Part shown: positions 10,301 through 59,200 of the stretch, piece by piece | Layout: each line of letters begins with the position of its first letter | Numbering within the stretch: position 1 is the first letter of the stretch | Origin: Argopecten irradians | Lineage: Eukaryota; Mollusca; Bivalvia; Pectinida; Pectinidae | Direction: 5' to 3' | Assembly: GCF_041381155.1 (NCBI RefSeq) | Contig: NC_091146.1 | Coordinates: forward strand, 34,571,328 to 34,635,327 | DNA length: 64,000 nt | Made by a program: the position numbers and the translations under genes | Notes under the pieces: model-generated | Databases searched by the model: none | Seen by the model: the letters and a program-made list of their open reading frames with translations, nothing else | What the model was told of the DNA's origin: nothing

Positions 10301-13300
10301 ATGTTTATAAATTTCCTGATCACAGGAACGTTTAAAAGATTCCTGATCACATGAATGTTTATAAAATTCCTGATCACAGGAATGTTAATGGATAAATTTC
10401 CTGATCACAGAACGTTTAAAAAATTCCTGATCACATGAATGTTTATAAAATTCCTACTCACAGGAATATTTATAAATTTCCTGATCTCATGAACATTTAA
10501 AAAATTTCTGATAACATGAATGTTTTTAAAATTCCTGATCACAGGAATGTTTAAAAAATTCCTGATCACAGGAATGTTTACAAATTTCCTAATCAAAGTA
10601 AAGTTCATAAATTTCCTGATCACACTAACGTTTATAAATGTCCTGATCACAGGAATGTTTATAAATTTCCTGATCATAGGAATGTTTATAAATTTCCTCA
10701 TCACAGGAATGTTTTAATTTCCTGATCACAGGAATGTTTAAAAAATTCCTGATCACATGAATGTTTATAAAATTCCTGATCACAGGAATGTTTAAATTTC
10801 CTGATCACATGGATTACACAGAGTTACTGACCTTGTTTCTATCCTGACAACCTCAACATCGCTGTCTTCTGATCCCGACGACAGTTCAACATCTTCTACT
10901 ACCAGGCCTGTGGGTGTGGCACTTTCTGCTCGGGGGGCGGGGCCCTCCTGTACTGTTAAGTCAATGCTGTTATCAAGTTTTTCTGTACTTCCTGAACTTT
11001 GATTTTCCGTTTCCATATACTCCCTCCGAGAGGCTGTTGTTGGCGTCGCTGCCCTAGGAACAGGAGTTGTGTCCCTTGACATGGCCTGTTCCTCGTTGCG
11101 GTTGAGATCAGTTCTCGAATTGTGACACTCGACCTCTTCGTTTGTATCGTTGGGAATCGTTGATTTTTGTCGTGTTTTTTTATCACTTGGTCGCGTACTT
11201 TGTGAAGGCTCATGCCAAGACGAGCGATCAGAGCGGGCTATCTGCTGCCTTCCTGATTGGGTGAGATCGGTAGGTTGTACGTCACCATGGTAACCGCATT
11301 CTGGATGAGAACACGACTGATTGAGCATGGAAACTGGGTCACTGTGGCGACAGCACCAACTCTCCACCTGAGCCCCTGGGGAGGGAAGACTAGGGAATGT
11401 GTCGCAGGGTTGTGAGGCTCCAGAGGTTGGGGGGATAGGGAGTGCAGGGTGTGAGGGGTGGGGCCTGTGACCACAGCTACGTGTCTGGCCCCGGCGGGAA
11501 GGGTTAGGAGGGAAGAAGGCACTCATCATACCGGAAGAATCCCTAGGGTCACGGCGACCTCGATAGGCCAGCCGACCCCACACAGGTTCAGGACCTGGTG
11601 CTGGTAAATTAAAGAGTGAATAAGGATTCAGAGAGTCCATAATATCTGACCGTTCCCCCATTGGCCGACTCTGATCCCCGTTGTCATGGTGATCTGCTGG
11701 CTTGTGAGAATTTTTCGCAACTTTGGGCTTGTCCTTTTTACTACATCGTGCTTCAGTGGAGTCCCTGTTTGAAGTCGAATCTCTTTGTCCTTGATGACCT
11801 TGAGATGGACCTTGACTCTGATCCCAGTCCCAATTTTCATGATCATGTGACAGGTGAGAGAGATGGTCCATGTAGGAGCGAAAATTGTCAGTGAGAGGCG
11901 TGGGGTCAGAGGTCAAATCTGCTAAGAACAGAGGCTGTGAGCTGGCCAAGGGTTCGGTCAAGGGCTCAGTTCTCTCCCCTAAAAACACCGGCGATGAACC
12001 CTCCACAAGGATGTCAGGGTCAGAGGTCACGGGATCACAGACACCTGCAACAATCGAGTGAATTTGCTCTTTTCTTTGGAAGAGGTACGCATGACAATAT
12101 TTTGGACACACCCATTTTTCAATCTTGATATTTATAAACATGGAATTTCTTTTTTATTTGAAAAGGGTCAGAACTTTTCCAAATCTCTCCCAGAGTTCAT
12201 TGTAGTCCTTCAATCACCTCTGTCAATGACTCACAAACTGGCCTTCTGTTGACCGTGGGTCACAGATTATAACAGCATAGTGATTGTTTAATACATTGTG
12301 GTCCACTTGTAGATTAAGCTCAGTGATATTTTTTGTTTTTGAAATAGCAGAGGTTGTATGCAATTCATAACTTATTAACTTACAAGTAAATTTAGTGTCA
12401 ATCCACAATTATGTTCGGTCAAAACTAACAGTCATTTAATTTATAGACAAAAAAAATTTTTTAGTATGAGTCCAAAATACATTTTTCAATCATCTTAATA
12501 GACAGTATACGGGAATGAATCCTGAGAGAACTGCAATGAACTCTGGAAGAGATTCCACTTTTCCATGATCTTATTGAATGCTGATAAGATGAATCAAAGG
12601 CATATGAACTGAATTAGCAACGCACCAGGAACTGGAGTCGGAGCTGATGAACTGGTATCCATGGAAACGACCTCAACCTCATCCGGAGTCCAAGAGCCTG
12701 GAGTTCCTGTCAGCGCTATAATGAGATAAATCATTCAGGTGAGTTAATGACTATAGATCTAGAATGCTTCTTAGACATATTTTACCGACTGAGGTCAGGT
12801 AATGACTACAGAATACTTCATTACTTTAGACATGTCTTACCGATAGAGAAGGTCAGTTAATGACAATAGAATGTTTCAATAGACATGTCTTACAGACAGA
12901 GAAAGTCGGGTAATGACTATAGAATACTTTGTTAGACATGTTTTACCCACTGAGGTCATTTAATGACTATAGAATGCTTCGTTAGACATGTTTTACGGAT
13001 AGAGAGAGTCAGGTAATGAGTCACAATGACTAAAGAATGCTTCATTACTTTAGACATGTCTTACCGATAGAGAAAATTGATAATGACTAAAGAATGCTTC
13101 ATTACTTTAGACATGTCTTACCGATAGAGAAGTCAGGTAATGACTAAAGAAATACTTTGCTAGACATGTCTTACCGATAGAGAAAATTGATAATGACTAA
13201 AGAATGCTTTGTTAGACATGTCTTACAGATAGAGAAATACAGGTAATGACTAAAGAATGCTTTGTTAGACATGTCTTACAGATAGAGAAAATCAGGTAAT

Positions 13301-56200: not shown

Positions 56201-59200
56201 TCGTTTAAATTTGTTTTTCAAGTGAACATGACAAGTGTCGTTTAAATTTGTTTTTCAGGTGAACATGACAAATGTCGTTTACTTTTGTTTTTCAGGTGAA
56301 CATAACAAGTGTCATTTAAATTTGTTTTTCAGGTGAACATGACAAGTGTCGTTTACTCTCGTTTTTAGGTCATCTGACCCGAAGGGTCAGGATGACCTAT
56401 AGTCATCATGTTTCGTCCGTCGTCGTCCGCCGTGCGCCGTGCGCCGTCCGCCGTCCGCCGTCCGCCGTGCGCCGTGCGTTAACTTTTCACATTTTGAACT
56501 TCTTCTCAAGTTCTACCAGTGCGATTAGGCTGAAACTTGCGTGAAATGATCCTGACATGGTCCCGACAAAGTGTTGTTATTTTTCGGGTCGATCCGAAAT
56601 CCAAGATGGCCGCCACAGCCGCCATCTTGAAAACACATTTTGAACTTCTTCTCAAGTTCTACCGGTGCGATTTGGCTGAAACTTGCGTGAAATGATCCTG
56701 ACATGGTCCCGACAAAGTGTTGTTATTTTTCGGGTCGATCCGAAATCCAAGATGGCCGCCATCTTGAAAACACATTTTGAACTTCTTCTCAAGTTCTACC
56801 AGTGCGATTTGACTGAAACTTGCATGAAATGATCCTGACATGGTCCCGACAAAGTGTTGTTATTTTTCGGGTCGTTCCGAAATCAAAGATGGCCGCCACA
56901 GCCGCCATCTTGAAAACACATTTTGAACTTCTTCTCAAGTTCTACCAGTGCGATTAGGCTGAAACTTGCGTGAAATGATCCTGACATGGTCCCGACAAAG
57001 TGTTCATATTTTTTGGGTCGATCCGAAATCCAAGATGGCCACCACAGCCGCCATCTTGAAAACACATTTTGAACTTCTTCTCAAGTTCTACCGGTGCGAT
57101 TTGGCTGAAACTTGCGTGAAATGATCCTGACATGGTCCCGACAAAGTGTTGTTATTTTTCGGGTCGATCCGAAATCCAAGATGGCCGCCACAGCTGCCAT
57201 CTTGAAAACACATTTTGAACTTCTTCTCAAGTTCTGTCGGTGCGATTTGGCTGAAACTTGCATGAAATGATCCTGACATGGTCCCGACAAAGTGTTGTTA
57301 TTTTTTGGGTCGATCCGAAATCCAAGATGGCCGCCACAGCCGCCATCTTGAAAACACATTTTGAACTTCTTCTCAAGTTCTACCGGTGCGATTTAGCTGA
57401 AACTTGCATGAAATGATCCTGACATGGTCCCGACAAAGTGTTGTTATTTTTTGGGTCGATCTAAAATTCAAGATGGCCACCACAGCCGCCATCTTGAAAA
57501 CACATTTTGAACTTCTTCTCAAGTTCTACCGGTGCGATTTGGCTGAAACTTGCATGGAATGATCCTGACATGGTCCCGACAAAGTGTTGTTATTTTTCGT
57601 GTTGATCCGAAATCCAAGATGGCCGCCACAGCCGCCATCTTGAAAACACATTTTGAACTTCTTCTCAAGTTCTACCGGTTCGATTAGGCTGAAACTTGCG
57701 TGAAATGATCCTTACATGGTCCCGACAAAGTGTTGTTATTTTTCAGGTCGATCTGAAATCCAAGATGGCTGCCACATCCGCCATCTTGAAAACACATTTT
57801 GAAGTTCTTCTCAAGTTCTACCGGTGCGATTTGGCTGAAACTTGCATGAGATGATCCTGACATGGTCCCGACAAAGTGTTGTTATTTTTTGGGTCGATCT
57901 AAAATTCAAGATGGCCTCCACAGCCTCCATCTTGAAAATACATTTTGGGATTAATTTTGCAAAAAAATTATACGACACTCGTGTTGGTTTATGATGCGGG
58001 CGCATTCAAAATCGGCCGAGCCAACAACCTTAAGGCCCTTGGGCCTCTTGTTTGAAATAAAATTTGTTGAAAGAAATTGAAAATGATCCTGACATGGTCC
58101 TGAAAAAGTGACACCATATATAATTAATTTTACTATTGCCAAGGTAGTCAGATGACCGTTAAGGCCCTTTGGGCCTCTTGTTTCAGGTGAACATGACGAG
58201 TGTCGTTTACTTTTGTTTTTCAGGTGAACATAACAAGTGTCATTTAAATTCGTTTTTCAGGTGAACATGACAAGTGTCGTTTACTCTCGTTTTTTCAGGT
58301 GAACATGACGAGTGTTGTTTACTTTCGTTTTTCAGGTGAACATGACAAGTGTCGTTTACTCTCGTTTTTTCAGGTGAACATGACGAGTGTCGTTTACTCT
58401 CGTTTTTTCAGGTGAACATGACGAGCGTTGTTGAGGAGATCAATGATAAACACATGACACCGTGGGCTGCAGCCTGTCAGATGGATGACGTCGCCAACAC
58501 TCCACTCAACCCCTTCATAGACGAGGTAGGGGGAGTGTAAATACAAATCAAGAAAAATATTTTATAGCAAAATAATTCATACACGTAAATAATTCAAAAT
58601 TGGTAAACAGCAAGTAAAACCAGAGAGCGTAGTCAGGGGAACAACTCTAATAGTATTATAAGCTAGGTGGCACTATCGTCACCTAGCATCAGTTCTTTGC
58701 TTGATGGTATATTACATAATCAGTAAATAATTATAATATGTATTGATTTATGTGTGCAGCTCAGGTCGAGAGCATAGGCAATCGTTCATAAATAGATATT
58801 TTCAATTTATTTATTCTTGTTTATTGTTCCCCCATTGACGTAGGTTTAAGTAAACTCTGATATTGCTTACCTAAAGGGTGGAATATCATTACCCTGAAAA
58901 CCAAGTATATATTAAAAATAGAATATTTCTTTCACATCATATTTAGTTAGGGTTTTATTTATTTGTGTAATCCTATTAACAGCCAGGGTCATGTAAGGTC
59001 ATGTACCTGGCAACTGTCCCATATGAGATTCAAACTCGAAACCCAGAAGTGGAAGCTTGTGGTAATATGTCGGAACATTAAAGATGCTCCACCGCAGACA
59101 AATGGTATTTTTTCACTATCAAAAACAGGAGCAGACGATTCAATAATTTTCTTCAGTTACAAAAGTTACTGACTTTACACCATTACCACCATTGAAATGT

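Follow-up and report, generated by a model that had tools for sequence, protein, structure and literature searches.

Introduction

Tandem arrays that repeat a splice junction have a precedent in amphioxus, in which minisatellite-like tandem duplications of the intron-exon boundary, with units of 10-160 bp, are called mirages, a name that PMC3087553 credits to an Adh paper of 2002. According to the accessible parts of PMC3087553 and PMC3902484, mirages are present in Adh3, troponin C and the globins BflGb6 and BflGb9, with similar repeats in PGBD5; they leave splicing undisturbed, and they show length polymorphism and somatic instability. In this study, we describe arrays of the same appearance in 64,000 nucleotides of the genome of the bivalve Argopecten irradians (contig NC_091146.1, positions 34,571,328 to 34,635,327; hereafter the window), within one gene of the SDR class and one RNF111 gene. 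By the structural features tested, these arrays are best classed as mirage minisatellites of the amphioxus type, although only weakly so for the array at the RNF111 exon 2 donor.

The likeness to the amphioxus repeats, as far as those two papers describe them, is that either donors or acceptors are affected and that many copies carry splice signals. An array at the RNF111 exon 2 acceptor departs from this pattern in that its copies lack AG, and the copy numbers differ, reaching 46 and ~58 here compared with 3 and 6 in two BflGb6 haplotypes. The host also differs: a bivalve rather than a lancelet, with six or seven junctions affected in two genes of one window that is known from sequence alone. 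The original prediction on this DNA had stated that no named system of this kind was known, which the amphioxus mirages contradict. What is new is therefore the bivalve host and the size of the arrays, the kind of repeat itself having already been described. We found no report of mirages in molluscs among the titles and abstract openings listed by our searches, in a literature that omits most subscription journals; the mirage papers that our searches returned concern amphioxus only, and the accessible parts of PMC2206037, PMC12783039, PMC4039745 and PMC3510168 contain nothing on arrays that include splice junctions. Large mirages in a bivalve would make mirages a wider animal phenomenon, beyond lancelets.

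Two other systems are related, again to the extent that the accessible parts of the sources describe them. In human segmental-duplication genes, tandem repeats at exon-intron boundaries can alter splicing and create introns (PMC2812944); those repeats vary between recent paralogues and are supported by transcripts, whereas the arrays in the window are seen in one sequence and their extra copies are intronic. Intron gain from tandem arrays or from duplicated AG/GT proto-splice sites, as recounted in PMC3087553, likewise duplicates splice signals, whereas the present arrays lengthen introns that already exist, and intron gain is not shown.

Splice junctions copied into tandem arrays

Arrays that copy a splice junction are genuine in the SDR and RNF111 genes. 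Manual merging of the 92 rows returned by Tandem Repeats Finder (TRF) gave 45 arrays, not counting four excluded rows: a poly-A run, an ATCA run, a 16-bp array at 40182 and an A-rich run (37769-37815). We scored a junction as spanned when an array reaches at least 4 nt to both sides of it. Six of the 46 junctions in the two gene models (23 in each gene) are spanned, three of them acceptors (SDR exons 2, 7 and 11) and three of them donors (SDR exons 7 and 10, RNF111 exon 2), with repeat counts from 2 to nearly 60. When at least 8 nt per side are required, five of the 46 remain, because the RNF111 exon 2 donor, with 4 exonic nt only, drops out. Eight junctions had been predicted to lie within arrays; these six stand, whereas the SDR exon 6 and exon 9 acceptors are abutted only, and one further array had been missed.

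The array at the SDR exon 2 acceptor (33580..36293; all SDR arrays are given on the plus strand) has 46 copies of a 59-bp unit, which runs through a CTAAC motif, a T-rich stretch and ACAG into the first ~23 nt of exon 2 (36271..36332). By the branch-point consensus, CTAAC is branch-point-like. SDR exon 7 is flanked by arrays on both sides. At its acceptor, six 51-bp copies lie in two blocks, a distal part of ~4 copies (51958..52157) and a proximal part (52529..52641) whose last copy is the authentic exon start at 52615; between them is an apparent insertion with 45-bp inverted repeats (52158..52528, no strand assigned). At its donor, nine copies of 39 bp, each with 19 exonic and 20 intronic nt, occupy 52750..53117, and the authentic copy is the first, with the donor after 52768. 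The SDR exon 10 donor array is the smallest, with 2.1 copies of 38 bp (55418..55498) flanked by the 5-bp repeat ATAGC. At the SDR exon 11 acceptor, ~17 copies of 37 bp again form two blocks, 10 copies distally (55994..56370) and 6.7 copies proximally (58181..58432), the last of which is authentic (exon start 58412); a HINE/pearl-like transposon separates the blocks. The RNF111 exon 2 donor array (12760..15786, minus strand) has ~58 copies of 52-53 bp, each with GTAAGACATG, and fills 98.6% of a 3067-nt intron.

The array that had been missed lies at the RNF111 exon 2 acceptor (15964..16118, minus strand). It is decayed, with an 81-bp unit that contains the exon-like GAAGGATCAGTC. Its copies resemble the exon more than in any of 2000 shuffles (0/2000), with an anchor that was picked after the match was seen. 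The SDR exon 2, 7 and 11 acceptors, used as positive controls, each gave the same 0/2000. For the SDR exon 7 and exon 10 donors, the exonic part of the unit derives, by sequence, from the adjacent exon; for the RNF111 exon 2 donor this derivation is weak, with 4 nt only.

When six units were compared with the window by BLAST, matches were confined to each unit's own array, save one 13-nt hit (E 0.038), so the arrays arose in place. We rejected the idea that they are copies of a mobile unit on the same ground. The direction of copying can be read at SDR exon 2, since the copied part of the exon is in-frame coding sequence for TGFIGRH, which points from exon to array. We take TGFIGRH to be part of the NAD-binding glycine motif that is conserved in this enzyme class, and on that understanding rejected the converse idea, that the exon edge is exonised array sequence.

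Other arrays lie beside exons without copying them. A 34-bp array (45422..45610) ends exactly at the acceptor AG of SDR exon 6, and an 80-bp array (54200..54513) ends 17 bp before SDR exon 9. Their copies have no similarity to the respective exons (shuffle P 0.30 and 0.68), and we rejected both as junction-containing arrays. Two minisatellites likewise begin just outside exons, one (10137-10809) 22 bp past the RNF111 exon 4 donor and the other (42856-43023) 14 bp past the SDR exon 4 donor.

Apparent enrichment of arrays at and near exons

An excess of spanned junctions is suggestive, but it depends on the null and is not secure. In the null that we prefer, every array counts as a single founding unit, an array split by an insertion being one event, and these units are placed randomly within the collapsed gene spans in 4000 shuffles. 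The shuffles excluded simple-sequence arrays, an 899-bp duplication in RNF111 and the array at the RNF111 exon 2 acceptor, an array that begins outside the gene span. For the 20 events within the two gene spans, the expectation is 1.28 spanned junctions and the observed number six (P 0.00075); with four transposon-borne arrays added (24 events), the expectation rises to 1.88 (P 0.0075); and at a minimum of 8 nt per side, five are observed against 1.01 expected (P 0.00175). Over the window as a whole, a binomial test returns P 0.0025, 0.035 or 0.042, depending on the array class. The enrichment is only suggestive because the hypothesis was formed on the same window and because SDR holds all but one of the six strict cases (5/23 junctions in SDR and 1/23 in RNF111; Fisher P 0.19).

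At 13 of the 46 junctions an array is found within 60 bp, compared with 4.1 expected, a count reached in 0 of 4000 shuffles; with the transposon-borne arrays added, 5.2 are expected (P 0.001). Among the 12 arrays near a junction, one junction being counted per array, six span it, compared with 4.4 expected from nearness alone (P 0.25). The evidence favours an excess that concerns nearness to exons rather than a process at the junction itself. The proposal of a mechanism acting at junctions is thus supported in part: under the founding-unit null, spanning is over-represented, though not securely, but given nearness it shows no significant excess.

A proposed model for array growth beside exons

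We favour an explanation, at a probability of about 0.72, in which duplication beside exons is followed by expansion and leaves passive decoys, with no junction-specific mechanism required. Slippage or microhomology-mediated repair would first produce a tandem duplication of a short segment straddling an exon edge, the clearest footprint of such a duplication being the ATAGC repeat around the two copies at the SDR exon 10 donor. The array would next grow, to as many as ~58 copies, and become homogeneous through unequal exchange and slippage, as the likeness of the copies suggests. Because the exon must stay intact, growth would proceed on the intron side, which would leave the outermost copy as the authentic site, a use to which the open frames point. 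The inner copies would be passively carried decoys, mostly with GT or AG, and would presumably be ignored because a short exon is recognised jointly with its nearest splice sites (exon definition). Arrays lie near exons beyond what random placement predicts, and some would straddle a junction as a consequence. Should this exon-near excess hold genome-wide, it would bear on where minisatellites arise or survive.

Several observations weigh against this explanation. The founding breakpoint can be read at the SDR exon 10 donor only; the SDR exon 2 array shows, by eye, little or no microhomology; and the nearness of arrays to exons is not accounted for by slippage alone. The 13 near junctions include the SDR exon 2 donor and the RNF111 exon 3 acceptor, which lie beside the arrays of other junctions, and the shuffles were scored alike. 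If the RNF111 exon 2 acceptor is counted, seven of the 12 near arrays span their junction (P 0.10), so that a weak effect of the junction itself is conceivable. A copy-scan, which searched locally for repeats of the 40 bases surrounding each junction and used 10,164 sampled noncoding positions as the control, found six of the 46 junctions compared with 7-8% of controls at thresholds of 28-32 (P 0.09-0.19), and five of the 46 at a threshold of 34 (P 0.15); since this result is marginal, a genome-wide sample could show a smaller excess even for proximity. The six junctions of the copy-scan differ from the strict six, the 899-bp duplication bringing in the RNF111 exon 8 acceptor and the RNF111 exon 2 donor being missed. 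SDR alone gives P 0.02-0.065, and RNF111 shows no excess. We read the control as probably raised by the uncollapsed 899-bp duplication and by transposons.

A reason for the nearness to exons might be supplied by differential survival, in which intron interiors turn over through transposon insertion and deletion, and the DNA flanking exons is older and protected, so that arrays persist there. Consistent with this, arrays cluster within 60 bp of exons and the introns carry several HINE-like elements; against it, two of the mirages themselves apparently carry insertions. We regard differential survival as possible, though tentative, and it is compatible with the growth of arrays by duplication and expansion that we favour.

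Chance would offer a simpler account, in which the introns are dense in minisatellites, the reader of the sequence noticed those that touch exons, and genome-wide enrichment is absent. Minisatellites make up 25% of noncoding bases, or 35-36% with other array classes included, and a null based on this raw coverage predicts 11.5 spanned junctions, which leaves no excess. The copy-scan values, the lack of an excess in RNF111 alone (P 0.44) and the origin of both window and hypothesis in one reading also fit chance. Against it stand the founding-unit permutations (P 0.00075 to 0.0075) and the proximity counts (13 junctions compared with 4.1 or 5.2). Raw coverage was rejected as the sole null, although its result points the opposite way, since the independent event is one founding unit, covering one unit's length only, and later copies are not independent. 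We consider chance unlikely. The prediction that spanned junctions are far more frequent than expected at random thus holds under the founding-unit null, but neither under the copy-scan nor against raw coverage.

A much stronger proposition would be that tandem duplication truly concentrates at exon edges across the lineage, with a mirage at a large fraction of junctions, introns that grow largely by reiterating splice sites, and dozens of intact decoys that are routinely ignored through exon definition. This seems to us rather doubtful. Were it true, the array at the SDR exon 7 donor would constantly supply in-frame exon extensions of 13 residues.

A mutational mechanism at the junctions themselves, such as R-loops, transcription-coupled breaks or slippage at splice consensus motifs, might seed the duplications. 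The six spanned junctions compared with 1.28 expected would agree with this, as would the additional junction-containing array at the RNF111 exon 2 acceptor and the fact that both donors and acceptors are hit. However, spanning given nearness is not significantly enriched, the copy-scan is marginal, and all but one of the six strict cases come from SDR. G-skew on the coding strand, which R-loops require, has a positive sign at four of the spanned junctions but a negative one at the SDR exon 10 donor (-0.23) and at the RNF111 exon 2 donor (-0.23), the latter being the site of the largest array, and R-loops, which had been suggested for these junctions, are therefore not supported as a general cause. 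We consider a junction-seeded origin improbable.

Inner copies as probable splice decoys

The splice dinucleotide is intact in nearly all copies, the authentic one included: 45/46 at the SDR exon 2 acceptor, 58/58 at the RNF111 exon 2 donor, 15/17 at the SDR exon 11 acceptor, 9/9 at the SDR exon 7 donor and 5/6 at the SDR exon 7 acceptor, and both SDR exon 10 donor copies keep the splice signal. Splice columns were compared with other columns in six arrays, namely five that span a junction and the abutting SDR exon 6 array, with the two-copy SDR exon 10 donor array left out. The splice columns were not significantly better conserved (permutation P 0.10-0.78), in a test with few columns and low power. 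At the RNF111 exon 2 donor, divergence is 0.010 in the GTAAG columns compared with 0.086 elsewhere (P 0.098).

Using patterns that do not fit every copy, we found 130 decoy sites: 53 in RNF111, 43 at SDR exon 2, 14 at exon 11, eight at the exon 7 donor, six at exon 9, four at exon 6, and one each at the exon 7 acceptor and the exon 10 donor. If used, 128 of the 130 would lead to a premature stop. In the gene models the frame stays open with the outermost copy as the splice site, which fits the use of that site as the authentic one. Use of copies 2 (52807) and 3 (52846) of the SDR exon 7 donor would lengthen the exon by 13 and 26 residues, respectively, without breaking the frame.

Selection for redundant splice signals, whether to protect the site or to yield regulated non-productive isoforms, would suit the GT or AG kept in most copies, the low divergence of the RNF111 GTAAG columns and the two in-frame inserts at SDR exon 7, but with splice columns significantly better conserved in none of the six arrays, a low-powered comparison, and premature stops from almost all decoys found, this suggestion of the original prediction finds no footing and we think it very improbable. 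With up to ~58 near-identical splice sites in competition, these arrays are natural constructs on which the choice of the authentic site and the lengthening of introns can be tested directly.

Transposons and other features of the window

Two of the junction arrays, those at the SDR exon 7 and exon 11 acceptors, are apparently split by later insertions. The insertion at exon 11 is a HINE/pearl-like transposon (56366..58183, plus strand) with subterminal inverted repeats (subTIRs), a CGTCCG microsatellite, a 146-bp core array and a 3' palindrome. HINE/pearl elements are non-autonomous Helentrons with central tandem repeats of ~160 bp, a 3' subTIR and a palindrome, as the accessible part of PMC7492417 describes them. 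The exon 11 insert, compared by description only, fits that layout, with a subTIR and inverted repeat, microsatellite, central repeats, and a 3' subTIR with palindrome. Other such elements or parts of them lie at 30670-32725, ~38300-39600, 41178-41703 and ~59964-61194. Across the window, their features are the GGTCATCTGACC subTIR, the CGTCCG microsatellite, core arrays of 145-171 bp and a GGCCC..GGGCCTCTTG palindrome, with not all parts present in each; those with a GTCC-type microsatellite resemble the oyster elements in the same part of PMC7492417, a likeness that points to a bivalve host, and other repeats of the window also look molluscan. A literature search with the letters of the transposon's 3' end returned no paper of related title.

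The SDR gene (plus strand) consists of 12 exons from 29184 to 59710 in one open frame of 354 residues, its 3' end being incomplete. Exons 6-11 alone match a NAD-dependent epimerase domain (Pfam Epimerase, E 6.8e-14). The 12 RNF111 exons (minus strand, 15909 down to 1216) also join as a single open frame; their numbering is that of the earlier reader, and exon 1 was not found. Among solved structures, the RING finger matches Arkadia/RNF111 best (E 1e-25), followed by ARK2C/RNF165 (2.9e-24).

Scans of the window against Rfam and for tRNAs returned no matches. The first 160 residues of a Cys-rich open segment of 231 residues (24550-25242, minus strand) gave no Pfam match; by eye, the segment is RBR/IBR-like. 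RNF111 exon 12 has a GC donor, GTGAG|gcaagt, at 1745-1746 on the minus strand. RNF111 also contains an 899-bp direct duplication (4856-6613) that includes a second copy of exon 8 (5761-6184), which was excluded from the gene model. The upstream exon copy in this duplication is, by eye, without the corresponding donor, and the breakpoint lies ~10 nt inside exon 7, so that the exon 7 donor is duplicated too.

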